Source of the DNA: Amnibacterium sp.
GTDB lineage: Bacteria > Actinomycetota > Actinomycetes > Actinomycetales > Microbacteriaceae
NCBI GenBank assembly: GCA_025936735.1
Contig: JAICSU010000009.1
Coordinates: 1 to 34,916 of the forward strand
Reading direction: 5' to 3'
DNA length: 34,916 nucleotides
Shown piece after piece: positions 1,936-19,645 of this stretch (the first letter of the stretch is position 1; each line of letters begins with the position of its first letter). Under the pieces are notes generated by a model that was not told the DNA's origin, ran no database searches, and saw nothing but the letters and a program-made list of their open reading frames with translations. The position numbers and the translations under genes were made by a program.

Positions 1936-2343
1936 ATGACCCTCACCGAGCACGCGCTCCGCGGGGCGGTGCTCGCCGCCGGTGAGACGTGCCGGTTGGC
2001 CGTCGGCCTGCCCTGGTATCGGAGCATGCCCGTCTCGGCGGTCCTCGGGATCGACCTGACCATCGACGGCGAGGCCGTGCCCGACCTCCACCTCCGGCTC
2101 GAGAGCCGCTCCGTGCCTGTTGATGAGCTCGACCGCGTCGAGGACCTGGCGTGGTTCCTGCAGGACCGGGCCACGCTCGAGTGGCGCGCTCCTGCGCCGT
2201 CCGATGCCGTCGCCGACGTCGTCCTCCGTGTGCGGCTGCAGCTGCCGAACCTCGTCGTGCCCGGCGGCACCGCGGTGCAGGTGCTGCAGGAGGTCCGTGG
2301 CGCGGTGCCGGTGGAGACCGTGCCCGTGGGGACCGTGCCATGA
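1936..2343 (+). CDS. C-glycoside deglycosidase beta-subunit-like protein (DUF6379 family), copy 1
   Basis: The protein has 135 residues. An in-frame ATG also exists at 1924, but GGAGCGGA between the two makes 1936 the better start. The mark of the family is LPWYRSM at residues 25-31, followed by a TIDGEAVP turn; the same [LI]PWYR[SA] block recurs in the genes at 3430, 5748 and 9106. In characterised C-glycoside deglycosidases the small beta-sandwich subunit pairs with a TIM-barrel alpha subunit and helps shape the active site. This copy lacks the YMQIAP-like C-terminal segment of its relatives and has LPNLVVPGG instead, so it is a diverged member. Its stop overlaps the ATG of the next gene (ATGA), which encodes an equally diverged alpha-like protein, so the two probably form a pair. 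Confidence 0.8.
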   Translation: MTLTEHALRGAVLAAGETCRLAVGLPWYRSMPVSAVLGIDLTIDGEAVPDLHLRLESRSVPVDELDRVEDLAWFLQDRATLEWRAPAPSDAVADVVLRVRLQLPNLVVPGGTAVQVLQEVRGAVPVETVPVGTVP

Positions 2344-3368
2344 GCACGCGAGCGCGGCTCGCCGTGACCCTGTTCTCCTTCACGAACGAGCTGCTCGCGG
2401 CGGAGCGCTCGCCCGACGCGCTGCTCGGGGAGCTGCTGCGCGCCGAGCCCGGCGTCGCGGTCGAGATCGACGGCGCCCAGCACTTCCGCTCGTTCCCGCT
2501 GCTCGACCTGGACGAGGTCCGCCGGACCGCGGGCGTCATCGAGGCGGCCGGCGAGCGGGTCTCGCTGCTCGGCGGGGGCGCCGACGTGGCGCCGGCGCCC
2601 GGCCGGTTCCTCGACGCGGGGGAGCAGCTCGCGCAGGTGCGATCGCAGCTCGCCGCGGCCGCGATCCTGTCGGCCGAGGCGGTCCGGATCCCGTTCGGCG
2701 TGCTCCCGTGGGACGTGCTCGCGCGGGCCGCGGACGACGCCCGGGCCGCGGGGCTCCTGCTCGTCGAGGAGGTGCAGGGGCCGGCGGATCCGGCGGGCGA
2801 GCCGATCCGGAACCGCATCGCCGACCTCGAGCGCACGGGGGAGACGGCGGTCCGGCTGCTGCTCGACACGAGCGCCCTGATGTCCGGCCTGCCCGAGACC
2901 TATGTGGCCGCGCTCCGCGCCGAGGGCGTGCCGGACGCGCTGGTCGGCCGCCTCGGCGAGGCCTTGGCGTCGGGTCGGGTCGCGCCGCTCGTGCTGCCCG
3001 CGCTCGCCGATCCGGCCTTGTCGCCGGCGGCGAGAGGGCTGCTCATCACTGCGATGACGCGTTTCGGTGCGTCGCGTGCGGCCTCGTGGCTGCCGCTCGC
3101 GCGCTGGATCGCGGCGGTGCACGTGAAGTGGTGGGACCTGGACTCGGCCGCAGCGGACCTCGCGGCCGAGACCGGCGCCGTGATCGACGGGCTGCTCGCC
3201 TCCGGCTTCGACGGCACGGTCTGCAGCGAGTGGGGCGGCCACGAGTGGCAGGGCCTCGAGTGGCAGGGGCTCGAGGTCGCCGCCTCCCGCCAGGTCGCCG
3301 CGCATCTCGACCTGCTCCGGGCGAGGTTCGGCCAACCGTCGACCGACTTCAGTACAAAAACGACATAA
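2340..3368 (+). CDS. Diverged TIM-barrel protein related to C-glycoside deglycosidase alpha subunit
   Basis: The protein has 342 residues and starts at the ATG overlapping the previous stop. It can be aligned by eye to the alpha-like proteins at 3430, 6155 and 7266 although similarity is low. Metal-ligand positions of the xylose-isomerase-like barrel appear kept: E144, D176 (LLLDTSAL), H261 (HVKWWDLD) and E297 (CSEWGGHEWQG). The E-x-H motif of the paralogues (YEIHAP) reads EEVQGP here, so a conserved His is replaced by Gln146. The GRR[KR]DRDMTPDEE segment of the paralogues is also missing. It may have another reaction, another substrate or a structural role. A short tandem EWQGL repeat lies near residues 302-311. 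The last codons overlap a candidate operator for the next gene. Confidence 0.75.
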   Translation: MSTRARLAVTLFSFTNELLAAERSPDALLGELLRAEPGVAVEIDGAQHFRSFPLLDLDEVRRTAGVIEAAGERVSLLGGGADVAPAPGRFLDAGEQLAQVRSQLAAAAILSAEAVRIPFGVLPWDVLARAADDARAAGLLLVEEVQGPADPAGEPIRNRIADLERTGETAVRLLLDTSALMSGLPETYVAALRAEGVPDALVGRLGEALASGRVAPLVLPALADPALSPAARGLLITAMTRFGASRAASWLPLARWIAAVHVKWWDLDSAAADLAAETGAVIDGLLASGFDGTVCSEWGGHEWQGLEWQGLEVAASRQVAAHLDLLRARFGQPSTDFSTKTT

Positions 3369-3429: not shown

Positions 3430-4908
3430 ATGCCGAACGGACTGATCGACGACGCGAGCCTCCGGACCCATCCGGACGGGCTCGCGCTGTCCCTGACGAT
3501 CCCCTGGTACCGGAGCCTCTGGCTCTCCTCGGTCGGCACCCTGCAGCTCACGATCGACGGCGAGCCGGTCCCCGAGCAGGACCTGGCCTTCGAGCTGGAC
3601 GGCGTCCGGTACGCCGTCCCCGACCTGCCCGAGCAGAGCGACGTGCTCTGGTACCTCCAGTCGCATCCGCTCCTGATCGTGCGCCGACCGGCCCCGGTCG
3701 CGCTCGGCGAGTCCCACGACGTCGTCCTCCACGGCGAGCTGCGCCTGCCCTACATGCAGATCGCCCCCGGAGCGGACGGCGGGCCGGGTCTGTACGTGCC
3801 GAACGTCGTCCACCAGGCGCTGACGCTCACGGTCACCGACCGGGATGCCCCCGCGCCGGCCCTCGAGGCCGCCGCCGCCCCGCCACCCCCCGCATCGGAG
3901 AGCGACCCGTTCAAGCTCGGGCTCACGCTGTACTCCGCGAGCGCCGAGTTCCGCGCCGGCTGGTTCGACTTCGACGGGCTGCTCGACCGGGTCGCCGCGC
4001 TCGGCATCGGGCCCGGCATCGAGATCGTCGCCTCCCAGGTCCTGCCGACCTACCCCATCGTGTCGGACGAGTTCGTCGCGCAGTGGCGAGCGGCCTTCGA
4101 CCGGCACGGGTTCGACGAGTCCTCCTTCGGGGCGAACCTCGACATGGGCCGCCGGCGTGACCGCGACATGACTCCGGACGAGGAGTTCGAGTTCAGCGAG
4201 GCGCTGTTCCAGGGCGCGAAGAAGCTCGGCTTCCCGCTCGTGCGCATCCAGAGCGCGAAGCCCGAGCTGCTGCGCCGCCTGCTGCCGATCGCCGAGGACC
4301 TCGAGCTGAAGCTCGCCTACGAGATCCACGCCCCCATGGGACCCAACGATCCGACGATCCTGAAGGTGCGCGACACCTACGCGGAGCTCGACTCCCCCCT
4401 GCTCGGCTTCGTCGCCGACTTCTCGGCGACCATGCGCGCGATGTCGCCGACCCTGCTGCGCGCCGTCCGCCGCGCGGGCCTCGACGACGAGGCGGTGGAC
4501 CGCCTGCAGGAGATCTGGGCGACCGACGCCTCCATGCGCGACCGTCAGCAGGAGTTCATCGGCTACCTGCGTGGCCGCGACTTCGACCCGGGCCGCCTCG
4601 GCTCCTTCGCCCACCTGGCCTTCAACATGCACGGCCACGTCGACCCGCACGAGTGGGCCGACATCATGCCGCAGATCCTGCACGTGCACGCGAAGTTCTA
4701 CGACATCGACGAGGACGGCGACGAGCCGGCGATCGACTACCCGGAGCTCGTGCGCGTGTTCGTGGAGGGCGGGTACCGCGGCTACTGGTCGAGCGAGTGG
4801 GAGGGGCACGCCTTCGCCGAGCTCGGCGAGGTGGACCCGCTCGTCCTCGTGCGTCGCCAGCACGACCTCATCCGGCGCAGCATGCGCGCCGCGCTCACCA
4901 CCGCCTGA
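3430..4908 (+). CDS. Fused beta-alpha C-glycoside deglycosidase-like protein
   Basis: The protein has 492 residues in two parts. Residues 1-138 form a complete beta-type domain with IPWYRSL (24-30) and RLPYMQIAP. Residues 139-158 are an Ala/Pro linker. Residues 160-490 are a complete alpha-type TIM barrel closely similar to the protein at 7266. Likely metal ligands are E298 (YEIHAP), D330 (FVADFS), H420 (HVHAKFYDID) and E456 (SSEWEGH); the neighbouring His300 is kept. Known C-glycoside deglycosidases are complexes of separate alpha and beta chains that eliminate the aglycone from a 3-oxo-C-glycoside with a divalent metal. A covalent fusion would lock the two subunits at 1:1. It is followed 17 bases later by an isomerase-like gene with AGGAGG before its start, so they are co-transcribed. 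The substrate is unknown. Confidence 0.85.
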   Translation: MPNGLIDDASLRTHPDGLALSLTIPWYRSLWLSSVGTLQLTIDGEPVPEQDLAFELDGVRYAVPDLPEQSDVLWYLQSHPLLIVRRPAPVALGESHDVVLHGELRLPYMQIAPGADGGPGLYVPNVVHQALTLTVTDRDAPAPALEAAAAPPPPASESDPFKLGLTLYSASAEFRAGWFDFDGLLDRVAALGIGPGIEIVASQVLPTYPIVSDEFVAQWRAAFDRHGFDESSFGANLDMGRRRDRDMTPDEEFEFSEALFQGAKKLGFPLVRIQSAKPELLRRLLPIAEDLELKLAYEIHAPMGPNDPTILKVRDTYAELDSPLLGFVADFSATMRAMSPTLLRAVRRAGLDDEAVDRLQEIWATDASMRDRQQEFIGYLRGRDFDPGRLGSFAHLAFNMHGHVDPHEWADIMPQILHVHAKFYDIDEDGDEPAIDYPELVRVFVEGGYRGYWSSEWEGHAFAELGEVDPLVLVRRQHDLIRRSMRAALTTA

Positions 4909-4925: not shown

Positions 4926-5720
4926 ATGTACCGACTCGCACCGAACATCGAGCTGCTCTTCACCGAAGCGGGGGACTACCAGGACCGCGTCCGCGCGGCA
5001 GCCGCCGCCGGCTTCGACGCCGTCGAGATGTGGGGGCCGACCGGGGTCGACGCCCCGGCCACCCCCAAGGACATCCCGGCGCTGAAGGCCGCCCTGGAGG
5101 AGACCGGCACGAGCCTCACCGCGCAGCTCGCCGAGCCGCGCACCCAGTTCATGATCCCGCCGTGGGACCACTCCGAGTTCTACCGGAAGCTCGACGAGGG
5201 CGTGGGCATCGCGCAGGAGCTCGGCTGCCCGCGCATCGTCGTCGGCAGCGGCACGGGTTTCGGCGGCTGGAAGCGCCAGGTCCAGCTCGACAAGCTGGTG
5301 GAGATCTACCAGAAGGCGGTCGCGCAGATCGAGGGATCCGGGGTCACGCTCGTGCTCGAGGCCGTGAACGTCCGGGTCGACCACCCCGGCTCGCTGCTCG
5401 ATCGCACGGCCGAGTCGGCCTACGTCGCCCGCGGCGTCGACTCCCCGTTCTTCGGCATCCTCTACGACCTGTACCACTCGACGGTCGAGGGCGAGGACGT
5501 CGCCGCCGAGCTGGCGGGCGCCGGCGACCTCGTGAAGTACGTCCAGATCGCGGATGCGCCCGGCCGCGGGGAGCCCGGCACCGGCGCCATCGACTGGCCG
5601 GCCGCGCTCGGCGTCCTGCGTTCCTCCGGCTACGACGGCCCGATCGGGCTCGAGTACTACCCGACCACCGAGTCGGCCGCCTCCACCGCCCGCATCCGCG
5701 ACCTCGCGGCGCAGGTCTGA
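4926..5720 (+). CDS. Hydroxypyruvate isomerase-like sugar isomerase/epimerase
   Basis: The protein has 264 residues, with AGGAGG nine bases before the ATG at 4926. It is a single TIM barrel of the xylose-isomerase-like superfamily, at the length usual for hydroxypyruvate isomerases (about 260). The stretch IADAPGRGEPGTGAIDW (208-224) is the Hyi signature. Probable metal ligands are E145, D181, H184 and E243. Hyi proteins interconvert hydroxypyruvate and tartronate semialdehyde, but relatives act on other keto-sugars. Set among genes that would release a keto-sugar, a ketose/aldose or keto-position isomerase for that product is the likely role (inference). It is cytosolic, without a signal peptide, and sits in the same operon as the deglycosidase-like genes. 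Confidence 0.85.
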   Translation: MYRLAPNIELLFTEAGDYQDRVRAAAAAGFDAVEMWGPTGVDAPATPKDIPALKAALEETGTSLTAQLAEPRTQFMIPPWDHSEFYRKLDEGVGIAQELGCPRIVVGSGTGFGGWKRQVQLDKLVEIYQKAVAQIEGSGVTLVLEAVNVRVDHPGSLLDRTAESAYVARGVDSPFFGILYDLYHSTVEGEDVAAELAGAGDLVKYVQIADAPGRGEPGTGAIDWPAALGVLRSSGYDGPIGLEYYPTTESAASTARIRDLAAQV

Positions 5721-5747: not shown

Positions 5748-6158
5748 GTGATCCCCGACCGCATCATCGAGCAGGGCACGCTCACCACCGACGGCGGCCG
5801 CGCCGCCGTCGAGGTGCGCATCCCCTGGTACCGCGCCCTGCCCGCGTCCTGCATCTCCGAGGTGGCGCTCGCCGTCGACGGCGTGCAGGCGCCCGCCGAG
5901 TCGCTCACCTGGACCATGAACGGCGAGACCCACCGCATCGCCGAGCTCGCATCCCGCCCCGACGACTGGTGGTTCCCGCTCGACTCGGCCGTCGTCTCCG
6001 GCGAGGTGCCGGTCGAGGGCGGCGGCGAGCACCGTGTCGACGTGGAGCTGAAGCTCTACATCCCCTACATCATCATCGGCGACGGCGAGGTGCTCCGGAT
6101 CGAGGAGCACGACACGAAGACGATGGCGGCCACGAGCGCGAAGGAGGCCGTCGCGTGA
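5748..6158 (+). CDS. C-glycoside deglycosidase beta-subunit-like protein (DUF6379 family), copy 2
   Basis: The protein has 136 residues from a GTG start at 5748, supported by AGGAAGGAG ending nine bases upstream. It carries IPWYRAL (25-31) and a C-terminal LYIPYIIIGDGEV strand pair that corresponds to the YMQIAP region of the other copies. Its stop overlaps the GTG of the following alpha-like gene by four bases, a classic arrangement for subunits of one complex. I therefore pair it with the protein at 6155. The C-terminal tail (TKTMAATSAKEAVA) is probably disordered. As with the other copies, a beta subunit alone is not expected to be an enzyme. Confidence 0.85.
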   Translation: MIPDRIIEQGTLTTDGGRAAVEVRIPWYRALPASCISEVALAVDGVQAPAESLTWTMNGETHRIAELASRPDDWWFPLDSAVVSGEVPVEGGGEHRVDVELKLYIPYIIIGDGEVLRIEEHDTKTMAATSAKEAVA

Positions 6159-7255
6159 CCACGCTCGGCTCGCCCATCCAGGGCGTCACCCTCTACAGCT
6201 TCACCCGCGCCTTCCACGGCCGGGAGTACGACCTCGAGGGCCTCATCCGCAAGGTGGCGGCGGAGGGCTACGGCCCGGGGCTCGAGATCATCGGGTTCTC
6301 GAGCTTCCGCGGCTTCCCTGAGATCGACGACGCGTTCGCGGGCTGGTTCCGCGACCTCGTCGCCGAGGTCGGCCTCGTGACCACCTCGCTCGCGATCAAC
6401 GCCGACATCGGCATCCACCGGGACCGCCTGCTGAACCAGGACGAGCTGATCGAGTACATGCGCCGCCAGATCGAGGCCGCCGCGAAGCTCGGCTTCCCGA
6501 TCGCCCGCGTGCAGATCTCGATCGAGCCGGACTCCATGGAGCGGCTCGCTCCGATCGCCGAGCAGCACGGCGTGACGCTCGCCCTCGAGGTGCACGCCGA
6601 CCAGTACGCCTCGCACCCGCGCATCCTCGCGCTGCGCGACCGGTACGAGCAGGTCGGTTCGCCCTACCTCGGCTTCACCGCCGACTGGGGCGCGACCACC
6701 GTCGGCTTCGCCCCATCGCTGATCGAGGCGTACCGCCGGCGGGGTGCCTCGGAGGAGCTGCTCGCCGAGGTCGTCGACCTCTGGAACGAGTTCTACGAGG
6801 CCGGACCGCCTGCGGACCAGGCCGACCACGGGCAGCGCTTCGGTCGCTTCATCGCCCTCGGCGCGCAGAACGGCCGCCCCGACCTCGGCGTCGACTTCGG
6901 CATCAACGGCACCGGCCTCTTCGGCCCGGCCCGGGTGGACGACTGGCTCGAGATCATGCCGTGGATCCGGCACGTGCACGGCAAGTTCTTCGGCATCGAC
7001 GAGCGCGGCGAGGAGCCGTCCGTGCCGGTGCGCGACCTCATCCGCCTGCTCGTCGAGCAGGGCTACACCGGTGCGATCTCGACCGAGTACGAGGGGTGGC
7101 ACTGGAACTACTGGCAGAGCCCCTTCGAGATCGTCGCGGGGGAGCAGGCCGTGCAGCGCTCGGCCGCCGAGGCCGCCGGCTCCCGCATGATCACCGATCC
7201 CGCCGAGGCGCGGGCGCAGCTCGCCGCGCACCTCGCCCAGCCCGTCCACTCCTGA
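6155..7255 (+). CDS. C-glycoside deglycosidase alpha-subunit-like TIM barrel, copy 2
   Basis: The protein has 366 residues, from a GTG overlapping the upstream stop. It is an AP-endonuclease-2/xylose-isomerase-like barrel. The blocks GPGLEI (40-45), ALEVHAD (143-149), GFTADWG (173-179), HVHGKFFGID (273-282) and STEYEGWHW (309-317) give probable metal ligands E145, D177, H275 and E311, with the nearby His147 kept. It differs from the copies at 3430 and 7266 by INADIGIHRDR in place of NLDMGRR and by a longer C-terminus (from residue 318, WNYWQSPFEIV). That suggests a distinct substrate or step, for instance hydration of an enone rather than elimination; this is speculative. It is co-expressed with beta copy 2. 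Confidence 0.85.
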   Translation: MTTLGSPIQGVTLYSFTRAFHGREYDLEGLIRKVAAEGYGPGLEIIGFSSFRGFPEIDDAFAGWFRDLVAEVGLVTTSLAINADIGIHRDRLLNQDELIEYMRRQIEAAAKLGFPIARVQISIEPDSMERLAPIAEQHGVTLALEVHADQYASHPRILALRDRYEQVGSPYLGFTADWGATTVGFAPSLIEAYRRRGASEELLAEVVDLWNEFYEAGPPADQADHGQRFGRFIALGAQNGRPDLGVDFGINGTGLFGPARVDDWLEIMPWIRHVHGKFFGIDERGEEPSVPVRDLIRLLVEQGYTGAISTEYEGWHWNYWQSPFEIVAGEQAVQRSAAEAAGSRMITDPAEARAQLAAHLAQPVHS

Positions 7256-7265
7256 GAGGAACCCC

Positions 7266-8303
7266 ATGACGGACGACACCGGCATCGCCGGCACCGGCAT
7301 CAAGCTCGGCATCACGCTGTACTCGCTGACCAGCGAGTTCGCCGCCGGGCTCTACACGCCCGAGACCCTGATCAAGGCCGTCGCCGACGAGGGCTTGGGC
7401 CCGGGGATCGAGTTCAACATCGCGCAGCTGCTGCGCACCTACCCCGACGTCGATGACGAGTTCGTGCGGCTCTGGCGCGACTCGATCGAGCGGTACGGCC
7501 TCGAGCCGTCGGCCGTGGGCACGAACCTCGACATGGGCCGCCGCAAGGACCGCGACATGACGCCGGACGAGGAGTACGACTTCCTCGCCCGCCAGCTCGC
7601 GACCGCGCACACGCTCGGCTTCCCGCGCGTCGTCATCCGCTCGGCCGGCAAGGAGCTGCTCCGCCGCCTGCTGCCGCTTGCGGAACGGTACGACCAGCGG
7701 CTCGGCTACGAGATCCACGCGCCGTCGGGTCCCAACGACCCCGTCGTACTGGGCATCCGCGAGGTCTACGAGGAGCTCGGCAGCGACCGGCTCGGCTTCA
7801 CGGCCGACTTCTCCTCGACGATGCACTCGCTCTCGCCCACCCTGCTCAGCCAGCTGTCGCGGATGGGGCTCGAGGATCGCCACTTCCCGGTGATGGACGA
7901 GATCTGGCACGAGCCGACGCCGATGCACGTGCGGAACCAGAAGTTCGAGGACTACCTCCGCGGCGAGGGCGTCGACCCGACGGGCTTCGGCCCCTTCACC
8001 CGGCTCGCGTTCAACATGCACGGCCTCGTGCCGCCGGAGGAGTGGCTCGACATCATGCCGCAGATCTTCCATGTGCATGCGAAGTTCTATGACATCGCGG
8101 CGGACGGTGAGGAGCCGGCGATGGACATCTCGCGCATCGTGCGGCAGTTCGTCCAGGGCGGCTACCAGGGGTACCTCTCGAGCGAGTGGGAGGGCCACGC
8201 CTTCCAGGACCTCGGCGAAGCCGACCCCATCGACCTCGTCAAGCGCCAGCACGACCTCATGCGGCGCGCCATCGAGGACACCGTCGCGGCCGTCCCGGCC
8301 TGA
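7266..8303 (+). CDS. C-glycoside deglycosidase alpha-subunit-like TIM barrel, copy 3
   Basis: The protein has 345 residues, with GAGAGGA a few bases before the ATG. It is the closest relative of the barrel half of the fused protein at 3430, sharing NLDMGRR.DRDMTPDEE, YEIHAP, HVHAKFYDI and SSEWEGHAF. Probable metal ligands are E149, D181, H271 and E307, with His151 kept. No beta gene is directly attached; the nearest unpaired one is at 9106, separated by the NTF2-fold gene at 8315. Those three probably form one functional group. In studied systems the alpha subunit with its metal abstracts the C2 proton of a 3-oxo-C-glycoside so that the C1-aglycone bond breaks. The actual aglycone cannot be predicted here. 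Confidence 0.87.
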   Translation: MTDDTGIAGTGIKLGITLYSLTSEFAAGLYTPETLIKAVADEGLGPGIEFNIAQLLRTYPDVDDEFVRLWRDSIERYGLEPSAVGTNLDMGRRKDRDMTPDEEYDFLARQLATAHTLGFPRVVIRSAGKELLRRLLPLAERYDQRLGYEIHAPSGPNDPVVLGIREVYEELGSDRLGFTADFSSTMHSLSPTLLSQLSRMGLEDRHFPVMDEIWHEPTPMHVRNQKFEDYLRGEGVDPTGFGPFTRLAFNMHGLVPPEEWLDIMPQIFHVHAKFYDIAADGEEPAMDISRIVRQFVQGGYQGYLSSEWEGHAFQDLGEADPIDLVKRQHDLMRRAIEDTVAAVPA

Positions 8304-8314
8304 AGGAGGAGCAC

Positions 8315-9097
8315 ATGACCGCCATCGAGACCGACGCGGGCGCCGAGCTGCGGGCCGAGGTCGCGCGGCTCCGCGAGGAGCTCGCCAGCACGACGCTGCT
8401 CGCCCGCCGCGCCGCGGACCGCGGCGAGGTGGAGAACCTCTTCAACCGCTACATGTTCTTCCACAACGCGTTCCAGGACGAGCGGATCATCCCGCTCTGG
8501 GTCGCGCCCGGCACGCCCGGCATCCGGGCGCAGTACACGAACGCGGGCGTCTACACGACGTGGGAGAGCGTCACGCGCTACCACCGGGGGCGCCCGTCGC
8601 CCGTCGGGAAGCTGATCCTGCACGCGACGACCACCCCGGTGATCGAGGTGTCGGGTGACGGCGAGACCGCCAGGGGCGTGTGGATCATGGCGGGCACCGA
8701 GTCCGGGCTGACCGATCCGGAGCAGGCCGCGACCATGCCGTCCGACATGTACTCGCCCGGCGAGGTGCAGGGGAAGAAGGTCTGGGCGCACTGGGTCTGG
8801 TGCAAGTACGCCATCGACTTCCTGAAGCAGGACGGGCAGTGGCGCATCTGGCGGTTCCGCTGCTACGAGCTCGCCCGCGCCCCGTTCGAGGAGAACTGGG
8901 TCAGCTTCGGCGAGAAGAACCAGGCCGCGTTCGACCTCGACCTCATGTACTTCGGCGACGACGGCAAGCCCGTCTTCATGCCGCCCGCGGACGAGCCCGT
9001 CCGCGACACCAACCACCCGTACAGCCCGGCGACCGTGCAGCAGCTGCAGCCCGAGCCGCCTGAGCCGTACACCACCATCTCCGAGATCGACGAGTAG
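8315..9097 (+). CDS. NTF2-fold (SnoaL_4-like) protein with N-terminal helix
   Basis: The protein has 260 residues, with AAGGAGGA placed well before the ATG at 8315. Residues 8-30 (AELRAEVARLREELAS) look like an amphipathic or coiled-coil helix. From about residue 35 a SnoaL_4-type cone follows, with EVENLFNRYMFFHNA at its first helix and many aromatic residues (VWAHWVWCKYAIDF, WRIWRFRCYE) lining what would be a pocket. The last 40 residues are Pro-rich. Relatives include scytalone-dehydratase-like enzymes and ring-hydroxylase small subunits, but I cannot name a reaction. It lies between alpha copy 3 and beta copy 3, so a step on the same substrate, such as dehydration, hydration or aglycone binding, is a reasonable inference. 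Confidence 0.75.
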   Translation: MTAIETDAGAELRAEVARLREELASTTLLARRAADRGEVENLFNRYMFFHNAFQDERIIPLWVAPGTPGIRAQYTNAGVYTTWESVTRYHRGRPSPVGKLILHATTTPVIEVSGDGETARGVWIMAGTESGLTDPEQAATMPSDMYSPGEVQGKKVWAHWVWCKYAIDFLKQDGQWRIWRFRCYELARAPFEENWVSFGEKNQAAFDLDLMYFGDDGKPVFMPPADEPVRDTNHPYSPATVQQLQPEPPEPYTTISEIDE

Positions 9098-9105
9098 GCG
9101 AAGCG

Positions 9106-9504
9106 ATGGCCACCCACAACTCCCTCTTCCAGGCCGAGGACGTCCGCCGGCGAGCGGACGGCATCGCCGTCTCCGTGCAGCTGCCCTGGTACCGCAGCCT
9201 CTGGCTGTCGGCCGTCGACGACGTCGAGATGACCGTGAACGGCGTCCCGGTGCCGAAGGACCGGCTCCGGTTCGAGCTCCAGGGCCGGTCCTACCGCATC
9301 GAGGAGCTTCCCGAGCAGTCGGAGACGCTCTGGTTCGTCGCGGACCGGCCGGACGTCGTCGCCCACCTCGACGAGGTGCCGGCGCCCGGCGAGTCGATCA
9401 CCGTCGAGGTCGTGCTCACGATGCGCCTGCTCTACATGCAGATCGCGCCGCAGCGCTACGTCACCAACCGGGTGCCGGTCGAGCGCGAGGTGGTGCTGGC
9501 ATGA
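9106..9504 (+). CDS. C-glycoside deglycosidase beta-subunit-like protein (DUF6379 family), copy 3
   Basis: The protein has 132 residues. It carries LPWYRSL (26-32), the MTVNGVPVP turn and RLLYMQIAPQRYV near the C-terminus, and is the separate copy most like the N-terminal domain of the fused protein at 3430. Its TGA overlaps the ATG of the oxidoreductase gene, so both are translated together. It is the likely partner of alpha copy 3 at 7266, in line with the parallel between that pair and the two halves of the fusion protein. The start is chosen for the beginning of family similarity; only a weak purine stretch (GGCGAAGCG) precedes it. Confidence 0.85.
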   Translation: MATHNSLFQAEDVRRRADGIAVSVQLPWYRSLWLSAVDDVEMTVNGVPVPKDRLRFELQGRSYRIEELPEQSETLWFVADRPDVVAHLDEVPAPGESITVEVVLTMRLLYMQIAPQRYVTNRVPVEREVVLA

Positions 9505-10670
9505 CCCTGCGCGTCGCCATGATCGGCTACGGCTTCATGGGTGCGGCGCACTCCGTCGGCTGGCGGCAGGCGCCCCGCGTCTTCGACCTGCCAGAGCAGG
9601 TCGAGACCGCCGTCGTGGTGGGCCGGAACGCCGCGGCCGTCGAGCAGGCCGCCCGCCACTGGGGCTGGGCGGAGGCGGCGACCGATTGGCGCGAGGTGAT
9701 CGCCCGGAACGACATCGACGTCGTCGACGTGGTGACCCCGGGAGACTCGCACGCCGAGATCGCGATCGCCGCGCTCGAGGCCGGCAAGCACGTGCTCTGC
9801 GAGAAGCCGCTCGCGAACTCGGTCGAGCAGGCCGAGGCGATGGCCGCGGCCGCCGACCGCGCCCGTGCCCGCGGTGCGCGCGCGATGGTCGGCTTCACCT
9901 ACCGCCGCGTGCCGGCCGTCACCCTGCTCCGCGACCTGATCGCGGAAGGACGGATCGGCCGGGTGCAGCAGGTTCGCGCCGCCTACCGGCAGGACTGGCT
10001 GGTGGATCCGTCGGTGCCGCTCGGCTGGCGGCTGCAGAAGGAGCACGCCGGCTCCGGCGCGCTCGGCGACATCGGCGCCCACATCGTGGACATGACCCAG
10101 TTCCTGACCGGCCAGGCCGTCCGTGCGGTGTCCGGCTCGATCGAGACCGTCGTGACGGAGCGCCCGGTCGTGGGGGAGCGGGTCGGCTTCACCGGCACCG
10201 CGACGGGGGAGACCGGGCCCGTGACCGTCGACGACCTCGCGATCTTCACCGGCAGGCTCGACGGCGGGGCGCTCGTCTCCTTCGAGGCGACCCGCTTCGC
10301 CACGGGGCGGAAGAACGCCCTCACGATCGAGGTGTCGGGCGACCGGGGCGCGCTCGCGTTCGACCTCGAGCGGCTGAACGAGCTGCGCTTCTACGACCGC
10401 ACGGCCCCCGGACCGCTGCAGGGCTTCACGACCATCCTCGTCACCGAGCCGGAGCATCCGTACGTCGCCGCATGGTGGCCGGCCGGCCACATGCTCGGCT
10501 ACGAGCACGGTTTCACCCACCAGGTCGTCGACCTCGTGCAGGCCATCCACGACGGGACGGACCCGCATCCGACCTTCGCCGAGGGCCTGTCGGTGCAGCG
10601 GGTGCTCGCCGCCGTCGAGGCGAGCGCCGCCGACCGCTCGGCCTGGACGACCGTCCCGGCGGAGCGCTAG
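9501..10670 (+). CDS. Gfo/Idh/MocA-family oxidoreductase
   Basis: The protein has 389 residues. A Rossmann fold opens with GYGFMG (9-14), EKPL (101-104) supplies the conserved Lys, and GALGDIGAHIVD (186-197) supplies the family's Asp and His of the catalytic region. Members oxidise or reduce sugar hydroxyls with NAD(P). In the gut puerarin pathway a Gfo/Idh/MocA protein carries out the C3 oxidation that precedes C-glycoside cleavage, so this enzyme could either start the pathway or reduce the keto-sugar at its end. It is translationally coupled to beta copy 3 and is the last gene of the train. No export signal is seen, so it is cytosolic. Confidence 0.92.
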   Translation: MTLRVAMIGYGFMGAAHSVGWRQAPRVFDLPEQVETAVVVGRNAAAVEQAARHWGWAEAATDWREVIARNDIDVVDVVTPGDSHAEIAIAALEAGKHVLCEKPLANSVEQAEAMAAAADRARARGARAMVGFTYRRVPAVTLLRDLIAEGRIGRVQQVRAAYRQDWLVDPSVPLGWRLQKEHAGSGALGDIGAHIVDMTQFLTGQAVRAVSGSIETVVTERPVVGERVGFTGTATGETGPVTVDDLAIFTGRLDGGALVSFEATRFATGRKNALTIEVSGDRGALAFDLERLNELRFYDRTAPGPLQGFTTILVTEPEHPYVAAWWPAGHMLGYEHGFTHQVVDLVQAIHDGTDPHPTFAEGLSVQRVLAAVEASAADRSAWTTVPAER

Positions 10671-11948: not shown

Positions 11949-12033
11949 GCTTGATTCTGACAGAAGTACGGCTACTTCGAACAGATCGACGGGCCATCCG
12001 TTTCGTTGATTTCGGACAGAAGTGAGGTATGCT
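11949..12033. promoter_or_regulatory. Divergent promoter/operator region between the ROK and MFS genes
   Basis: A dyad is centred at 11970: GAAGTA (11963-11968), four bases, TACTTC (11973-11978), with outer CTG (11957-11959) and CAG (11982-11984) also complementary. A related half site GACAGAAGT recurs in GTTGATTTCGGACAGAAGT (12005-12023). That element overlaps a rightward promoter, TTGATT (12006-12011), 16 bases, TATGCT (12028-12033). The arrangement fits a repressor that shuts off both directions. Binding by the ROK protein is inference. Confidence 0.55.
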
Positions 12034-12134
12034 GAGGGAGACGTCGGGGCCCACGGGCCCGTACCTCGCCGGAACCGGCGGCGGGGTCACAGTCGGTCGC
12101 GTCGACTGCCCGATCGATCGGGTGCCATCGCGCC

Positions 12135-13622
12135 ATGCTCCTCTCCCCCGCCCGATTCCGCGTCCTGCTCGTCGCCCTGCTCGCCGTGTCGTTCATGGGC
12201 GCCCTCGACAACACCGTGGTCGCGACGTCGCTCGCCACGGTCGCGGGGCAGCTCGGTGCCCTCGAGCACATGAGCTGGATCGTCGTCGGCTACACGCTCG
12301 CGAGCACGGTTCTCCTGCCGGTGCTCGGCCGGCTCGGCGACACGATCGGCCCCCGGTCCGTGTTCCTCGCCTCCTTGGCCGTGTTCGTGCTCGCGTCACT
12401 CGCCTGCGGCTTCGCCCACGACATCGTGTGGCTGATCACGGCCCGGGTGGTGCAGGGGATGAGCTCGGCCGGCCTGCAGCTCATGTCGCAGACGATCACC
12501 GCGCGCACCACGACTCCCCGGCAGCGGCCGAAGTACATGGCGATCATCGGTGCGGCGTTCCCCGTCGCGATCCTCATCGGTCCGGTGCTCGGCGGCCTCA
12601 TCACCGACTACTGGGGCTGGCCCTGGGTGTTCTGGGTGAACGTGCCCGTCGGCCTCGTCGCCTTCGTCCTCGCCCTCGTCGCGGTACCGCACCTGCCGGG
12701 CGGGGAGGAGCGCGTGCGGTTCGACGTGGCGGGCGCCGTCACCATGACGGTCGGGCTCGCGGGGCTCGTGATGGCGGCGACGTGGGCCGGGGACGCCGCG
12801 CTCCGTCCCGCCGCCGTGCTCGCCGGGGGGATCGCGGTCGTGGCGCTCGCCGCCTTCGCGCTGGCCGAGTCGCGGGCGGAGGCGCCCATCCTCCCGCTGC
12901 ACCTCTTCGCGCACCGGACGGTCACGGTCGGCACGGCCGTCTCCGCGATCGTCGGCATCGGGCTCTTCTCGATCACCTCCTACCTGCCGACCTACTTCCA
13001 GATGGCCTATCGGACCAGCGCGACGGTCTCGGGGCTCGTCCCCATCGCGACCGTGTTCGGCATGCTCGTCAGCAACCTGCTGTCCGGCTGGCTGGTGAGC
13101 CGCACGGGGCACTACCGGGCCTTCCCCCTCGTCGGCACGGTGCTCGGCGCGGCGGGCCTCGCCGTCATGGCGGCGCTCCCGGTGGGGCTGCCGCTCGCGG
13201 TGCCCATGGCGGTGATGGCCGTCGTCGGCCTGGGGACCGGAGCGTTCATGAGCCTGATCGTGGCCGTCGTGCAGAGCGCCGCGCCGCCACGCGACATCGG
13301 GTCCGTCACCGCCGCCGTGAACCTCGTCCGCTCGGTCGGGTCCACCGTCGCCACGGCGGTCATCGGCGGCGTCATCGGGTTCGGCGTCGCCGCGCTGCTG
13401 CCGGCGGGTCTCGACGCCGCCGCGCTCACCCCCGCCGCCGTGCACGCCGCTCCGGCCGCTCTGCAATCGCAGGTCGCGGCGACCTACCGTGGGGTGTTCG
13501 CGCCGATCTTCCTCGCGCTGTCCGTCACCTACGCCCTCGGCATCGTCGCCTCGGCCCTGCTGCCGGCCGGCCGGCTGCCCGACGTGCACGTCGAACCCGT
13601 CCCCGAGACCTCGCTCGCCTGA
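12135..13622 (+). CDS. MFS transporter, DHA2 (14-helix) type
   Basis: The protein has 495 residues and about 14 predicted hydrophobic helices. LDNTVV (24-29) in helix 1 is the DHA2 mark, GRLGDTIGPR (65-74) is motif A, and a GPVLGG stretch marks helix 5. DHA2 members are usually proton-driven drug exporters, yet here the gene starts the block holding the pyranose-oxidase-like and ThuA-like genes and is divergent from the ROK regulator, so it may import the glycoside or expel the toxic aglycone. The ribosome site before the ATG is weak. Only 23 bases separate it from the next gene, so the three genes 12135-16101 look like one operon. Confidence 0.9.
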   Translation: MLLSPARFRVLLVALLAVSFMGALDNTVVATSLATVAGQLGALEHMSWIVVGYTLASTVLLPVLGRLGDTIGPRSVFLASLAVFVLASLACGFAHDIVWLITARVVQGMSSAGLQLMSQTITARTTTPRQRPKYMAIIGAAFPVAILIGPVLGGLITDYWGWPWVFWVNVPVGLVAFVLALVAVPHLPGGEERVRFDVAGAVTMTVGLAGLVMAATWAGDAALRPAAVLAGGIAVVALAAFALAESRAEAPILPLHLFAHRTVTVGTAVSAIVGIGLFSITSYLPTYFQMAYRTSATVSGLVPIATVFGMLVSNLLSGWLVSRTGHYRAFPLVGTVLGAAGLAVMAALPVGLPLAVPMAVMAVVGLGTGAFMSLIVAVVQSAAPPRDIGSVTAAVNLVRSVGSTVATAVIGGVIGFGVAALLPAGLDAAALTPAAVHAAPAALQSQVAATYRGVFAPIFLALSVTYALGIVASALLPAGRLPDVHVEPVPETSLA

Positions 13623-13645
13623 TTCCCTGCCGTGAAGGAGCAGCC

Positions 13646-15235
13646 ATGACCCTCAGCCCCACCATCGCGGTGGTCGGCAGCGGCCCGATCGGGTCCGCCT
13701 ACGCCCGGATCCTGCTCGAGTCCCTGCCCGACGCCCGCGTGATCCTCTTCGAGGCCGGCCCTCGGCTCACCGACGTGCCCGGCGAGAGCGTGCGGAACAT
13801 CCCCGATCCCGAGGCGAAGGAGCAGGCGCGCGAGCGCTCCCAGGGCCCGCAGGCAGGGGCGCACCGCGCCTCGCTGGGGATCCCCGAGTCCGCCGTGGTC
13901 GAGGGGATGTTCACCGCCCGCGGGGGCACGCACCTGCTCGACTTCGGCGGCCCGGGCTCCGCGCACGCGCCCACGTTCCCCGCCGGCGCCGCCTCGACGA
14001 ACGTCGGCGGCATGGGCGCGCACTGGACGTGCGCGACGCCTGCGCCGTCCTTCAGCGAGCGGCTCCCGTTCCTCCCCGACGACGAGTGGGAGGGGCTCAT
14101 CGAGGAGGCCGGACGGCTGCTGCACGTGCAGAACGAGGCGTTCGCGGACTCCGGTGTCGGCGCGGCCATCCGCTCGCTGCTCGAGGAGGAGTTCGGCCCG
14201 GAGCTCCCCGAGGGCTACGGCCCGAGCACGCTGCCGGTCGCCGGCGACCCGCAGCCCGACGGCTCGATGCGGTGGGCGGGCGCCGACGTCGTGCTCGGCC
14301 CGCTGGTCGAGCGGGGGAACCCGCTCGCCCAGCGCTTCGAGCTCCGCGACCTCACCCTCGTGCGCCGCATCGAGCACGAGGACGGCCATGCGACCGGCGT
14401 GACCGTCGAGGACCTGCGGACGGGGGAGCGCTCCTTCGTTCCGGCGGACCTCGTGGTCGTCGCCGCCGACGCGTTCCGCTCGCCGCAGCTGCTCTGGGCG
14501 TCCGGCATCCGGCCGACCGCCCTCGGGCACTACCTCACCGAGCACCCGGTCGTCATCTCGACCGTCGCGCTCGACGAGCAGCGGATGCGGCGCTTCGCCA
14601 CCGAGGAGGACCTCGCCGGCGAGCTCGCGCGGCGCGCGACGAACCCGGCCGATCCCGTCGCCGCGGTGAACCGCATCCCCTTCTCCGAGCCGAACCACCC
14701 GTTCTCGCTGCAGGTGATGTACGCGGAGAACCCGCCCTTCCAGCTCGACCCCGAGCATCCTGCCGCGGGCAACCGGTGGGGTTACGTGAACATGGGCTAC
14801 GGCATGCGCAAGCAGCCGCGGTTCGAGGACGGCGTCACGTTCGACGACGACGAGCTCGACTACCGCGGCTTCCCGAACATGACGATCCGGTACGAGCTCA
14901 CCGACGCGGAGCAGGCCGAGATCGCCGACGGCACGGAGCACCTGCGCCGCGCCGGGAATGCGCTCGGCGTCTTCATCGCCGAGCCGCGGCTGCTGCCGAA
15001 CGGCTCGAGCCTCCACTACCAGGGCACGATGCGGATGGGGGAGCACGACGACGGCACCTCGGTCGCCGACCCCGACTCGCGCGTCTGGGGCTTCGACAAC
15101 CTCGTCGTCGGCGGCAACGCCCTCATCCCCACCGCGACCACCATGAACCCGACGCTGATGAGCGTCGCCATCGCCGTGCGCGGGGCCCGTGCCGCCGCCG
15201 CTCGGCTCACCGAGAACGCGGAGGCGGTGCGATGA
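13646..15235 (+). CDS. GMC flavoprotein oxidoreductase related to pyranose oxidase / FAD-dependent C-glycoside 3-oxidase
   Basis: The protein has 529 residues, with GAAGGAG before the ATG. GSGPIGSAYA (11-20) is the FAD-binding Rossmann start. TNVGGMGAHWTCATP (118-132) matches the pyranose-oxidase block in which a His is covalently joined to FAD; that His is 126 here. LHYQGTMRMG (456-465) and MNPTLMS (500-506) supply the catalytic pair, His457 and Asn501. Pyranose oxidases oxidise sugar C2 or C3, and actinobacterial relatives (CarA type) oxidise C3 of C-glycosides as the first step before the CGD complex acts. Given several CGD-like units 4-12 kb away, that role is likely. There is no signal peptide, so oxidation would occur in the cytosol. 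Confidence 0.88.
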   Translation: MTLSPTIAVVGSGPIGSAYARILLESLPDARVILFEAGPRLTDVPGESVRNIPDPEAKEQARERSQGPQAGAHRASLGIPESAVVEGMFTARGGTHLLDFGGPGSAHAPTFPAGAASTNVGGMGAHWTCATPAPSFSERLPFLPDDEWEGLIEEAGRLLHVQNEAFADSGVGAAIRSLLEEEFGPELPEGYGPSTLPVAGDPQPDGSMRWAGADVVLGPLVERGNPLAQRFELRDLTLVRRIEHEDGHATGVTVEDLRTGERSFVPADLVVVAADAFRSPQLLWASGIRPTALGHYLTEHPVVISTVALDEQRMRRFATEEDLAGELARRATNPADPVAAVNRIPFSEPNHPFSLQVMYAENPPFQLDPEHPAAGNRWGYVNMGYGMRKQPRFEDGVTFDDDELDYRGFPNMTIRYELTDAEQAEIADGTEHLRRAGNALGVFIAEPRLLPNGSSLHYQGTMRMGEHDDGTSVADPDSRVWGFDNLVVGGNALIPTATTMNPTLMSVAIAVRGARAAAARLTENAEAVR

Positions 15236-16791: not shown

Positions 16792-16807
16792 AACCAACCG
16801 GTTGGTT
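16792..16807. promoter_or_regulatory. Perfect 16-bp palindrome, probable TetR operator
   Basis: AACCAACCGGTTGGTT is perfectly self-complementary and lies directly after the -10 hexamer, where a bound repressor would block initiation. Size and position are typical of TetR operators. The divergent TetR gene starts 53 bases away. Confidence 0.7.
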
Positions 16808-16828
16808 ACCTCCTGGAAGGAGAGCCGG

Positions 16829-19645
16829 ATGCCTGCAGCGCCCCGCGTCACGATCACGAAGCTGGAGCATCGCGCCGACTCGCCCTTCGTGCCGACCGCC
16901 GTGCCGCGGCTCAGCTGGGTGACGGAGACCCAGGCGATCGAATGGCGCCAGGCCTGGGCGGAGGTCGAGCTCGATGGGCGGCCGGCGCGCATCGACGGCG
17001 ACGCGTCGGTGCTCGTGGCGTGGCCCTTCGCCCCGCTCCTCCCGGGGGAGGAGCGCAGGCTCCGCGTCCGCGTCGGCGGGACCGACGGCAGCGCCTCCGA
17101 CTGGAGCGAGCCTTGCACGGTCTCCGCCGGTCTCCTGGCACCCGGCGAGTGGATCGCGTCCCTGCTGGCGCTGCCCCACCCTGAGAGGCAGGGGCAGCCG
17201 GGCCTGCTGCGAGCGGAGTTCGACATCGTCGGCCCGGTGGTCCACGCGACCCTGCACGCGACCGCGCACGGGGTCTACCAGGTCGAGGTCAACGGCGAGG
17301 CAGTGGACGACGAGACGCTGAAGCCGGGCTGGACGGCCTACCAGTGGCGGGTGATCCAGGACACGACGGACGTCACCGCCTTGCTGCGGCCCGGCCGGAA
17401 CGCGATCGGAATCCAGCTCACGGCGGGCTGGTTCGCTGAGCGGTACGGCTTCGGCGCCGATGCGAAGCCGTTCTACGGGCCGCAGCCGAGCGCCGCCCTC
17501 CAGCTGGTCGTCCGCTACGCCGACGGCCGCACCGAGACGATCGCGACGGGCCCCGGTTGGAAGGCCCTCGCCGGCGGCCCGGTGATCTCGGCCGGCATCT
17601 ACGGCGGCCAGCACGAGGACGCCACCCGCTCGCTGCCGGGGTGGTCGGAGCCCGGCTTCGACGACGGCGGGTGGCAGGCGGCGGAGGTGGGCGAGACGGT
17701 CGTCCCGGTTCCGCGCTCGGCGCCGCCGGTGCGGGCGATCGCGGAGCTTCCGGTGGTCGCCACGTGGGTCGCGCCGTCCGGGGTCACGGTCCTCGACTTC
17801 GGCCAGAACCTCGCCGGGCGCGTGCGGATCGAGGCGTCTCTGCCTGCCGGCACGACGATCACGCTCCGGCACGCGGAGGTCGTGCACGAGGGCGAGCTGG
17901 ACCGGAGCTCGCAGCGCGGTGCGGCCGCCACCGACGTGTTCACGGCACCCGGCGGTTCCTTCGTCTGGGAGCCGCGATTCACCTTCCACGGCTTCCGCTA
18001 CGCGAGCGTCGAGGGCTGGCCCGGTGCGGTCCCGGCGGAGGCGTTCACCGCCGTCGCGCTCTCGAGCGATCTCGAGCGCACCGGCTCGTTCCGCTCGTCG
18101 CATCCGCTCGTGAACCGGCTCCACGACGCCGTCGTCTGGAGCACGCGCAGCAACTTCGTGTCGCTGCCGACGGACTGCCCGCAGCGCGACGAGCGGCTCG
18201 GCTGGACGGGGGACATCAGCATGTTCGCGCCGACGGCCACCGCGCTGCTCGACGTCGACGGGTTCCTCGCTTCGTGGCTCGCGGACCTCGCGCTCGAGCA
18301 GCGGGCCATCGACGGCACGGTGCCGTTCGTCGTGCCCAACGTGTCCGGCGTGTTCGTCACCCCGACCGCGGCCTGGGGCGACGCGGCCACGATCGTGCCC
18401 TGGACCCTCTACGAGCGGTACGGGGACGTGGGAGTGCTCGAGGCTCAGTACGGGAGCATGACGACCTGGGTCGACCTCGTCGCCGGTATCGCGGGGGAGA
18501 ACCACCTCTGGGAGGGCGGGTTCCAGTTCGCCGACTGGCTCGACCCGACCGCCCCCGCGGACTTCCCGACCGACGCGAAGGCCGACAAGGAGGTCGTCGC
18601 CACCGCGTTCCTGTTCCGGTCCGCCGACATCGTGGCGCAGGCCGCAGCGGTCCTCGGCCGCGAGGACGACGCCGACCGCTACCGGCGCCTCGCCGACGAG
18701 GTGCGGGCGGCCTTCCTCCGCGAGTACGTGTCCGCCTCCGGGCGCATCGTCTCGGACGCGCAGACCTCCTACGCGCTCGCCATCGTGTTCGGGCTGGTAC
18801 CCGACGAGGAGCGCCGCCTCGCCATGGGACGGCGGCTCGCGAAGCTCGTCCGCGTCAACGGCTACCGCATCGGCACCGGCTTCGTCGGCACGCCGTTCGT
18901 GCTCGAGGCGCTCGCCGTCACCGGCGAGTGGGCCGCCGCGGCCCGGCTCCTCACCGCGACCGAATGCCCCTCCTGGCTCTACCCGATCACGATGGGCGCG
19001 ACCACCACCTGGGAGGCCTGGGACGCGCTCCTGCCCGACGGCACCCCGAGCCCCGCGAGCACGTCGTTCAACCACTACGCCTTCGGCGCGGTCGCCGACT
19101 GGCTTCACCGCGGCCTCGCGGGCCTGGCCGCGGCCGAGCCCGGCTACCGGGTCCTCCGCATCGCCCCCGTGCCGCTGCCCGGGTTCGACTCCGCGGAAGC
19201 GAGCCTGCGCACCCCGTACGGCCGGGCGGTCAGCGGATGGCGCCGGCACGGCGACCTCCTGCACGTCCACGCGGTGGTGCCGGCGAACACCCGCGCGACG
19301 GTGTCGCTGCCCGACGGCTCCCGGCCGTTCGAGGTCGGCAGCGGTGAGCACGACTGGACGGTCCGGATCCCGCTGCCCGCGCCGCGACCCCGGCAGAAGC
19401 TCTCCCTCGAGACCCCGCTCGGCGAGATCATCGACGACCCGGTGGCCTATGCCAGCGTGCTCGAGGTCTTCGACCGTCATGCGCCGCAGGCCGCGCGGAC
19501 CCTGCGGACCCACACGCGATGGGAGGACGGGCTGCCGCTCTCCGTCGAGTTCTTCATCCTGCCGAAGGCGGTGCAGCGCGCCATCGACGCCGACCTGGCC
19601 GCCGCGACCGCGGCGGCGCCGGCGCCGCAGGGCCTCCCCGCCTGA
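16829..19645 (+). CDS. Alpha-L-rhamnosidase, GH78
   Basis: The protein has 938 residues. The ATG at 16829 follows GGAAGGAG; an in-frame TTG at 16802 falls inside the operator and is rejected. N-terminal beta domains include VEVNGEAVDDETLKPGW, the usual Bac_rhamnosid_N phrase. The (alpha/alpha)6 barrel holds LPTDCPQRDERLGWTGD, where E455 is the probable general acid, and TTTWEAWD, where E729 is the probable base. A C-terminal beta-sandwich ends the fold. It hydrolyses terminal alpha-L-rhamnose from plant glycosides such as flavonoid rhamnosides or from pectin fragments. There is no signal peptide, so the substrate must be imported first, which fits the transporters in this window. It is probably repressed by the divergent TetR protein. 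Confidence 0.94.
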   Translation: MPAAPRVTITKLEHRADSPFVPTAVPRLSWVTETQAIEWRQAWAEVELDGRPARIDGDASVLVAWPFAPLLPGEERRLRVRVGGTDGSASDWSEPCTVSAGLLAPGEWIASLLALPHPERQGQPGLLRAEFDIVGPVVHATLHATAHGVYQVEVNGEAVDDETLKPGWTAYQWRVIQDTTDVTALLRPGRNAIGIQLTAGWFAERYGFGADAKPFYGPQPSAALQLVVRYADGRTETIATGPGWKALAGGPVISAGIYGGQHEDATRSLPGWSEPGFDDGGWQAAEVGETVVPVPRSAPPVRAIAELPVVATWVAPSGVTVLDFGQNLAGRVRIEASLPAGTTITLRHAEVVHEGELDRSSQRGAAATDVFTAPGGSFVWEPRFTFHGFRYASVEGWPGAVPAEAFTAVALSSDLERTGSFRSSHPLVNRLHDAVVWSTRSNFVSLPTDCPQRDERLGWTGDISMFAPTATALLDVDGFLASWLADLALEQRAIDGTVPFVVPNVSGVFVTPTAAWGDAATIVPWTLYERYGDVGVLEAQYGSMTTWVDLVAGIAGENHLWEGGFQFADWLDPTAPADFPTDAKADKEVVATAFLFRSADIVAQAAAVLGREDDADRYRRLADEVRAAFLREYVSASGRIVSDAQTSYALAIVFGLVPDEERRLAMGRRLAKLVRVNGYRIGTGFVGTPFVLEALAVTGEWAAAARLLTATECPSWLYPITMGATTTWEAWDALLPDGTPSPASTSFNHYAFGAVADWLHRGLAGLAAAEPGYRVLRIAPVPLPGFDSAEASLRTPYGRAVSGWRRHGDLLHVHAVVPANTRATVSLPDGSRPFEVGSGEHDWTVRIPLPAPRPRQKLSLETPLGEIIDDPVAYASVLEVFDRHAPQAARTLRTHTRWEDGLPLSVEFFILPKAVQRAIDADLAAATAAAPAPQGLPA

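Follow-up and report, generated by a model that had tools for sequence, protein, structure and literature searches.

A putative single-chain C-glycoside deglycosidase of Amnibacterium and the fused beta-alpha genes related to it

The C-glycoside deglycosidases (CGDs) assayed by Mori et al. (PMC8563793) consist of two separate chains, alpha and beta. We wondered what to make of a gene in which these two subunits appear to be joined and which lies in a cluster that also encodes them separately. The gene belongs to a stretch of 34,916 nucleotides of Amnibacterium sp. DNA (contig JAICSU010000009.1), the whole of which is called the window here. Is the joined frame genuine, what might its product do, and how did such fusions arise?

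A single open frame and its spread among relatives

Positions 3430-4908 of the forward strand form a single frame of 492 amino acids with an ATG start and a TGA stop, as seen in the open reading frame listing and a codon check. The frame begins with a beta (CGDB/DUF6379) domain including its C-terminal strand (residues 1-134; 3430-3831), which was delimited by PF19906, by phmmer matches to 7dnm_B and 7bvr_B and by DSSP of a structure model. PF19906 itself covers residues 15-108 with 48.5 bits against a cut-off of 27.6 (E 8.6e-13), so that the domain expected of a CGD beta is present. The frame ends with an alpha domain, a xylose-isomerase-like TIM barrel (residues 161-492; 3910-4905) that is recognised by PF01261 (AP_endonuc_2; residues 187-466, 31.6 bits against a cut-off of 31.1, E 1.7e-7) and lies close to solved CGD alphas, with a gapless phmmer match to 7dnm_A of 432 bits. 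Between the two, the 79-row alignment and the secondary structure of the model place an Ala/Pro-rich linker (residues about 135-160; 3832-3909), and DSSP of the AF2 model assigns neither helix nor strand between residues 137 and 161. In-frame ATG and TTG are missing from codons 115-215 of the gene and GTG occurs only at codons 123 and 211; the alpha domain, which begins at about residue 161, thus has no usual start of its own near the linker, and we rejected an internal start there because ATG, GTG and TTG are all missing in frame between codons 123 and 211. In homologues, GTG and ATG at the end of the beta domain encode conserved residues.

The original prediction took the frame for a complete beta and a complete alpha domain in one natural chain, and its description and coordinates proved right. 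It also named a frameshift artefact as a pitfall and other genomes as the place to seek the same domain order. Used as the query against 84,980 species genomes, the 492-residue protein gave 110 stretches encoding relatives. We kept the best 80 of these 110 loci, by name mostly from Microbacterium, Agromyces, Leifsonia, Subtercola, Naasia, Arthrobacter and Pseudarthrobacter. One open frame ran from before query residue 30 to beyond residue 430 in 78 of the best 80 loci, and L110 is also fused but runs off the contig end, which brings the fusion, in the same domain order, to 79 of the best 80. The sole exception is L108 (4333-4359), in which about 122 nt of the linker region are gone and beta and alpha stand in different frames; this is an assembly error or a broken gene. 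Among the 79 aligned rows (78 loci and the window), the stretch corresponding to query residues 133-161 measures 29 residues in 73 and 28-32 in the remaining six.

A sequencing or assembly error could join two genes that are separate in the cell, and the window genome is indeed a draft of 322 contigs with 84% completeness; the different frames of L108 show that one of the best 80 relatives departs from the rule. Yet the fusion is shared by 79 of these species-level loci with the frame open in each and the linker length almost constant. We accordingly rejected the artefact reading and regard a joining error as extremely improbable.

The fusion is patchy in its distribution yet stable where present, and it is shared by many bacteria of the soil. 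A full-length fused match was found in 6 of the 99 genomes of a sample of relatives (own genome counted), and PF19906 at E <= 0.001 in 26 of 398 genomes of the family, 5 of 396 of the phylum (own genome counted) and 0 of 14 control genomes. An Arthrobacter plasmid (H1) carries a fusion of the same class as the window gene that is 80% identical. Large Novosphingobium plasmids (H2-H7) encode beta and alpha CGD relatives as two pieces with 32-35% identity.

The gene cluster, the active site and the domain arrangement

Fused chains occur in three CGD classes, of which the window gene represents class I. Its surroundings, all on the forward strand, hold further CGD genes. Upstream stands an unfused class III pair: a beta gene (1936-2343; start inferred, with an ATG at 1924 also possible) that scores 27.6 bits with PF19906, equal to the cut-off, and matches our beta HMM at 1966-2256, and an alpha gene (2340-3368) whose ATG overlaps the beta stop by 4 nt (ATGA) and which matches our alpha HMM at 2355-3329 and no Pfam family. 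Downstream of the fused gene follow a hydroxypyruvate-isomerase-like TIM barrel protein (4926-5720; PF01261 at 1.2e-38) and a second separate pair, composed of a beta gene (5748-6158; PF19906) and an alpha gene (6155-7255; PF01261, tree and codons) whose GTG overlaps the beta stop by 4 nt. The next alpha gene (7266-8303; PF01261, tree) matches 7dnm_A with 639 bits over residues 5-340 without gaps, and the beta gene at 9106-9504 matches all 132 residues of 7dnm_B (residues 1-132) with 209 bits. By these matches the two are the orthologues of AgCGD2 alpha and beta, here with the beta downstream of its alpha and a SnoaL-like protein between them (8303-9097, start approximate; PF13577). In total, the window genome has three other complete beta/alpha pairs in the cluster and one elsewhere. 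An apparent second fusion in this genome, open frame 466 at C192, was rejected since its beta and alpha are separate neighbours.

Putative genes for the oxidation step, a glycoside 3-oxidase or dehydrogenase, also lie downstream in the cluster. A Gfo/Idh/MocA oxidoreductase resembling levoglucosan dehydrogenase (9501-10670) was recognised by Pfam and an MFS transporter (12135-13622) by PF07690 (3.3e-54); a GMC oxidoreductase resembling pyranose oxidase or C-glycoside 3-oxidase (13640-15235, start approximate) matches GMC_oxred, and an alpha-L-rhamnosidase (16802-19645) contains five rhamnosidase Pfam domains. The NCBIfam matches of the cluster neighbours all remain below their cut-offs: TIGR03234 for the hydroxypyruvate-isomerase-like protein (157.6 bits, cut-off 353), NF052479 for the Gfo/Idh/MocA protein (352 bits, cut-off 650) and TIGR02462 for the GMC protein (163 bits, cut-off 545). 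The window also holds MFS transporters and a ROK-family regulator or kinase. A frame of 1068 residues at 12029-15235 was rejected as one protein since the MFS transporter occupies 12135-13622 in another frame; the GMC oxidase match is confined to the last part of the long frame.

We then compared the fused chain with AgCGD2. The alpha halves align without gaps in phmmer (query 161-489 with 7dnm_A 10-338), so that window numbers equal AgCGD2 numbers plus 151. The Mn2+ site of AgCGD2 is formed by E147, D179, H269, K271 and E305, with H149 and E307 as catalytic residues (Mori et al., PMC8563793); these map to E298, D330, H420, K422 and E456 and to the pair H300/E458 of the window protein. All seven are identical in 19 of 19 class I and 22 of 22 AgCGD2-type rows, and are invariant across 30 class I proteins. 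For the beta domain of PuCGE, Tyr39 was reported as essential for cleavage of C-glycosides and nearly dispensable for that of O-glycosides, its loss costing 2.4-fold on an O-glycoside and about 12,000-fold on C-glycosides (Bitter et al., PMC10628242). The tyrosine expected of a CGD beta is present as Tyr27 of the window protein, which aligns by phmmer with Tyr at position 39 of DgpB with no gap before it and is invariant in 30 of 30 class I proteins.

The aglycone side differs. Arg123 of AgCGD2 meets the aglycone in a docking model (PMC8563793); at its position (Gln274 in the window protein) all 19 class I rows have Gln and all 22 AgCGD2-type rows have Arg. At the position of Pro241 (Ser392), class I has Ser (14 rows) or Ala (5). 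The window protein, whose chain starts two residues later than the AgCGD2 beta, has no equivalent of Thr3, a residue of that beta in contact with the aglycone. Gln is not peculiar to fused chains, since the separate pair at 5748-7255 also has it at the Arg123 position (18 of 18 rows). With Thr3 missing and Arg123 replaced, the substrate range of AgCGD2 is not transferable to class I. From these alignments, class I probably combines an intact catalyst with an aglycone preference that is changed relative to AgCGD2.

We consider it likely that 3430-4908 encodes a working single-chain C-glycoside deglycosidase, that is, a 3-keto-C-glycoside beta-eliminase. We infer the activity, the metal and the order of reactions from AgCGD2, PuCGD and PuCGE, and likewise the docking within the chain and the benefit of the fusion. 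The FAD oxidase or the Gfo/Idh/MocA dehydrogenase of the cluster would first oxidise a plant C-glycoside at C3 of its sugar. The alpha domain would then bind a divalent metal (Mn2+) through its five ligands, H300 and E458 would drive an acid-base beta-elimination, and the beta domain would close the aglycone pocket, with Tyr27 (Tyr39 in PuCGE and DgpB) activating the aglycone. Recovery of the sugar after elimination would complete a pathway that is expected by analogy.

We also compared models of the whole chains. AF2 folded the window protein from 49 rows with a pLDDT of 89.6 and a pTM of 0.89, and the alpha half of the model superposes on 7dnm_A with Z 42.8 and 2.1 Å over 336 residues. When the whole class I model was compared with 8QRZ, the sole solved fused chain, Foldseek paired both domains in 511 columns, with an rmsd of 17.5 Å. 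As a control, a class II protein folded without templates fits 8QRZ over its full length (TM 0.95, 2.2 Å; Z 51.1, 1.9 Å over 429 residues), which shows that for this protein both domains are positioned correctly by the method. From the last beta strand to the first alpha strand there are 27 residues in class I versus 9 in class II. As modelled, the domain arrangement of class I differs from that of 8QRZ. Class I may pack like the AgCGD2 heterodimer within one chain, although docking within the chain rests on an AF2 monomer model, which cannot reveal oligomers, and class II would pack otherwise, perhaps between chains. The beta domain alone matches nothing beyond CGD betas in the Foldseek and VIA lists.

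The large deviation of class I from 8QRZ next to the close fit of class II, and the short class II linker, might suggest that in fused CGDs the beta domain docks on the alpha of a neighbouring chain, in a swapped dimer or tetramer. Among solved alphas that are separate chains, the one nearest to class II belongs to EuCGD, an alpha4beta4 enzyme (PMC8563793). AgCGD2, in contrast, is the nearest relative of class I and a single alpha-beta heterodimer (PMC8563793), and the class I linker is three times that of class II, enough to fold back, which argues that a swap is unlikely. We regard it as very unlikely that the chain is made whole and then cut in the linker to give an AgCGD2-like heterodimer: conservation is lowest in the Ala/Pro linker (mean majority share 0.69 versus 0.90 for the alpha domain), which is without helix or strand in the model, but its length and its closing PF are conserved among relatives and the solved sister 8QRZ/8UN2 was deposited as one chain of 433-435 residues.

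The substrate could also be of another kind. PuCGE cleaves a 3-keto-O-glucoside as well, and about 1.4% of this activity remains with the alpha chain by itself (PMC10628242), which would suit a 3-keto eliminase or hydratase acting on O-glycosides instead of C-glycosides. Nevertheless, the conservation of the beta tyrosine in all 30 class I proteins and AgCGD2 as the closest characterised relative point to a C-glycoside enzyme, and we find the O-glycoside reading quite unlikely.

Probable repeated fusion in beta-alpha order

In 25 other genomes, 40 stretches surrounding PF19906 matches were examined and their alpha and beta domains sorted with HMMs built here; one stretch (L189, genome G523) gave no domain by the HMMs used. 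The counts of fused and separate genes cover these 25 genomes and so only part of those with a match, with G213, G117, G230 and G749 and some places in G273, G402 and G411 outside them. Fusions were found in three CGD classes, every time with beta before alpha. The class I clade of the alpha tree has 19 rows, every one of them fused. Class II, which has a shorter alpha, has 13 fused alphas and 10 separate ones with the beta just upstream. In class III, 3 of 11 alphas are fused, namely at L165:12102-13493 (minus strand), L167:8925-10316 (minus strand) and L156:1767-3119 (plus strand) in three genomes, and the others, including the window pair at 1936-3368, are unfused; this class is highly diverged and PF19906 barely recognises its beta. 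Of the best 80 loci, 73 carry class II, in 67 of them as a fusion. Five of the six loci without a class II fusion have a separate beta just upstream, and in the sixth, L063, the contig begins inside the gene. Class I and class II fusions occur together in 66 of the best 80 loci. A distant actinomycete (L190; G607:C1:675000-684000) has an unbroken run of CGD genes, four encoding beta and three alpha, with no fusion among them.

The trees were built by a quick method with SH-aLRT support only, and the beta tree rests on few columns. The fused label changes 4 times on the 103-row alpha tree and 5 times on the beta tree, where 3 changes are forced by well-supported branches. The alpha count fell from 5 to 4 when L156_2, an edge-cut copy of the fused gene in L157, was dropped. 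Alphas matching fewer than 250 HMM positions were left out of the tree, which leaves 36 fused rows in the beta tree and 35 in the alpha tree; among those left out is L187, a class II beta-alpha frame with its alpha broken into two frames. Change counts by themselves do not separate gain from loss. As the fused sets lie among separate ones, independent gains per class are the simplest reading, and on these trees three or more origins of the fusion are most likely, each as beta-alpha.

The original prediction held that the fusion shows which orientation is tolerated. Indeed, beta-alpha is the sole order in the three fused classes, and alpha-then-beta fusions were found neither in the 42 sources sorted by HMM nor in the best 80 loci. 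What this order means is less certain: of the 18 unfused alphas in classes II and III, 16 have the beta just upstream, so the order of the fusions may mirror gene order rather than structural tolerance.

Gene order also informs the descent of class I. The alpha tree joins class I (19 rows, SH-aLRT 97) and the AgCGD2-type clade (22 rows, 99) as sisters, with a support of 100 for the two together; 7DNM is not itself a row of the trees and was placed by the matches of the window orthologues. In the beta tree, class I and AgCGD2-type betas share one 40-row clade (98), within which class I is not one clade but falls into 2 and 17 rows in an open fork. By the alpha tree, class I lies next to, and outside, the AgCGD2 orthologue group, and Arg123 and Pro241 of that group are not kept. 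AgCGD2-type alphas have the beta downstream in 20 of 22 cases; none was found within the distance searched in the other two, one of which is cut by the end of the stretch. The nearest unfused relatives outside both clades, L183 and L184 (fork at 90), have the beta 87-104 nt upstream of the alpha. Since the beta lies upstream in these and downstream in the AgCGD2 type, a beta-alpha pair is likely to have been ancestral; after it was duplicated, one copy would have become fused and the other would have changed its gene order. Adjoining beta and alpha genes, in that order, would have been joined through an Ala/Pro linker of 26-27 residues in the lineage next to AgCGD2.

We speculated that, where a cell produces several paralogous alpha and beta chains, the fusion would secure the right partner for each half. 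The betas of PuCGD and EuCGD do not pair with a foreign alpha (PMC8563793), which makes a pairing benefit plausible. This benefit is a hypothesis and the argument for it is weak, because the other pairs of the cluster stay separate and the failure to exchange concerns two distant enzymes. A broader picture is possible, and we put it forward tentatively, as one we would not bet on: in the C-glycoside clusters of Micrococcales, one heterodimeric enzyme may have become a single chain on three or more separate occasions, with two of the products, encoded side by side, taking an 8QRZ-like architecture with a short linker (class II) and an AgCGD2-like one with a long linker and a changed aglycone pocket (class I), and fusion would be a repeated answer to cognate pairing among the many paralogous subunits of one cell. 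The occurrence of unlike fused CGDs side by side and of unfused relatives in the same cells offers a natural test of what fusion gains. A CGD made from one gene as one chain, with its two halves locked at 1:1, should be simpler to produce, engineer and apply than a two-chain enzyme, be it for C-deglycosylation or for the reverse reaction, aryl-C-glycosylation, which has been reported (PMC13273386).

Comparison with solved and described CGDs

The original prediction knew of no characterised fused CGD, a view that is overturned at the level of structure. PDB entries 8QRZ (crystal) and 8UN2 (cryo-EM), released on 2025-04-23 under the title 'Microbacterium testaceum C-glucosyl deglycosidase (CGD)', contain one beta-alpha chain. 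Over 433 residues, the chain of 8QRZ and the product of a class II gene in M. testaceum NS220 (L051:2691-3992) have the same sequence. Only 8 bases separate the end of this gene from a class I fused gene (from 4001) that is 83% identical to the window's. Like the window protein, the solved chain is a natural single chain with beta before alpha and a CGD by title; unlike it, it belongs to another lineage with an EuCGD-like alpha, shares about 28% identity and, by the models, has its domains arranged differently. The window protein falls outside class II in both trees, in other alpha and beta clades, and by these trees class II was most simply fused independently of class I. The two-chain habit of assayed CGDs, absent from the window protein, is an unfair bar for membership, as 8QRZ is also one chain. 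The solved sister, and a stoichiometry already known to be 1:1, make the window protein less novel; interest now lies in the repeated fusion in the same order in three classes and in the two adjoining fused enzymes of apparently different architecture.

A J Mol Biol paper of 2024 reportedly deals with a Deinococcus aerius cluster, and it, or a later one in a subscription journal, may describe the fused enzyme. In the open-licence literature, to which most subscription journals do not belong, we found neither a paper or assay for 8QRZ/8UN2 nor a paper on any fused CGD, and this literature and the PDB matches gave no assay or structure of class I. Fused genes are nonetheless carried by strains used in published studies. 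For Pseudarthrobacter siccitolerans 4J27, a C-glycoside cluster with two B and two C genes (PsCGD_B1/B2 and PsCGD_C1/C2) was described (PMC10646112), and the same strain has class I and class II fusions (L092). Arthrobacter globiformis NBRC 12137 (L095), a strain used in PMC8563793, likewise has both. The words fused and fusion are missing from the main text of PMC10646112, and the word fused from PMC8563793.

AgCGD2 (AgCarB2-C2 of A. globiformis, 7DNM/7DNN) is the closest relative of both window domains, with all catalytic residues in common and 57-58% identity in the alpha and 36-37% in the beta domain by structure alignment. In contrast to the window protein it consists of two chains, its orthologues in the window are ordered alpha then beta, and it has Arg123, Pro241 and beta Thr3 where the window protein has Gln274, Ser392 (Ser or Ala in the class) and no Thr3. 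The enzymes of gut bacteria, DgpB-DgpC/PuCGD (PuCGE) and DfgA-DfgB/EuCGD, have the same two domains, metal site and proposed acid-base beta-elimination, but they are made of separate chains in alpha4beta4 complexes and their alphas are about 23-28% identical to the window protein. A 1:1 pairing of beta and alpha, which the original prediction derived from the fusion, is correct and had already been shown by the AgCGD2 alpha-beta heterodimer and the alpha4beta4 assemblies of PuCGD and EuCGD (PMC8563793).
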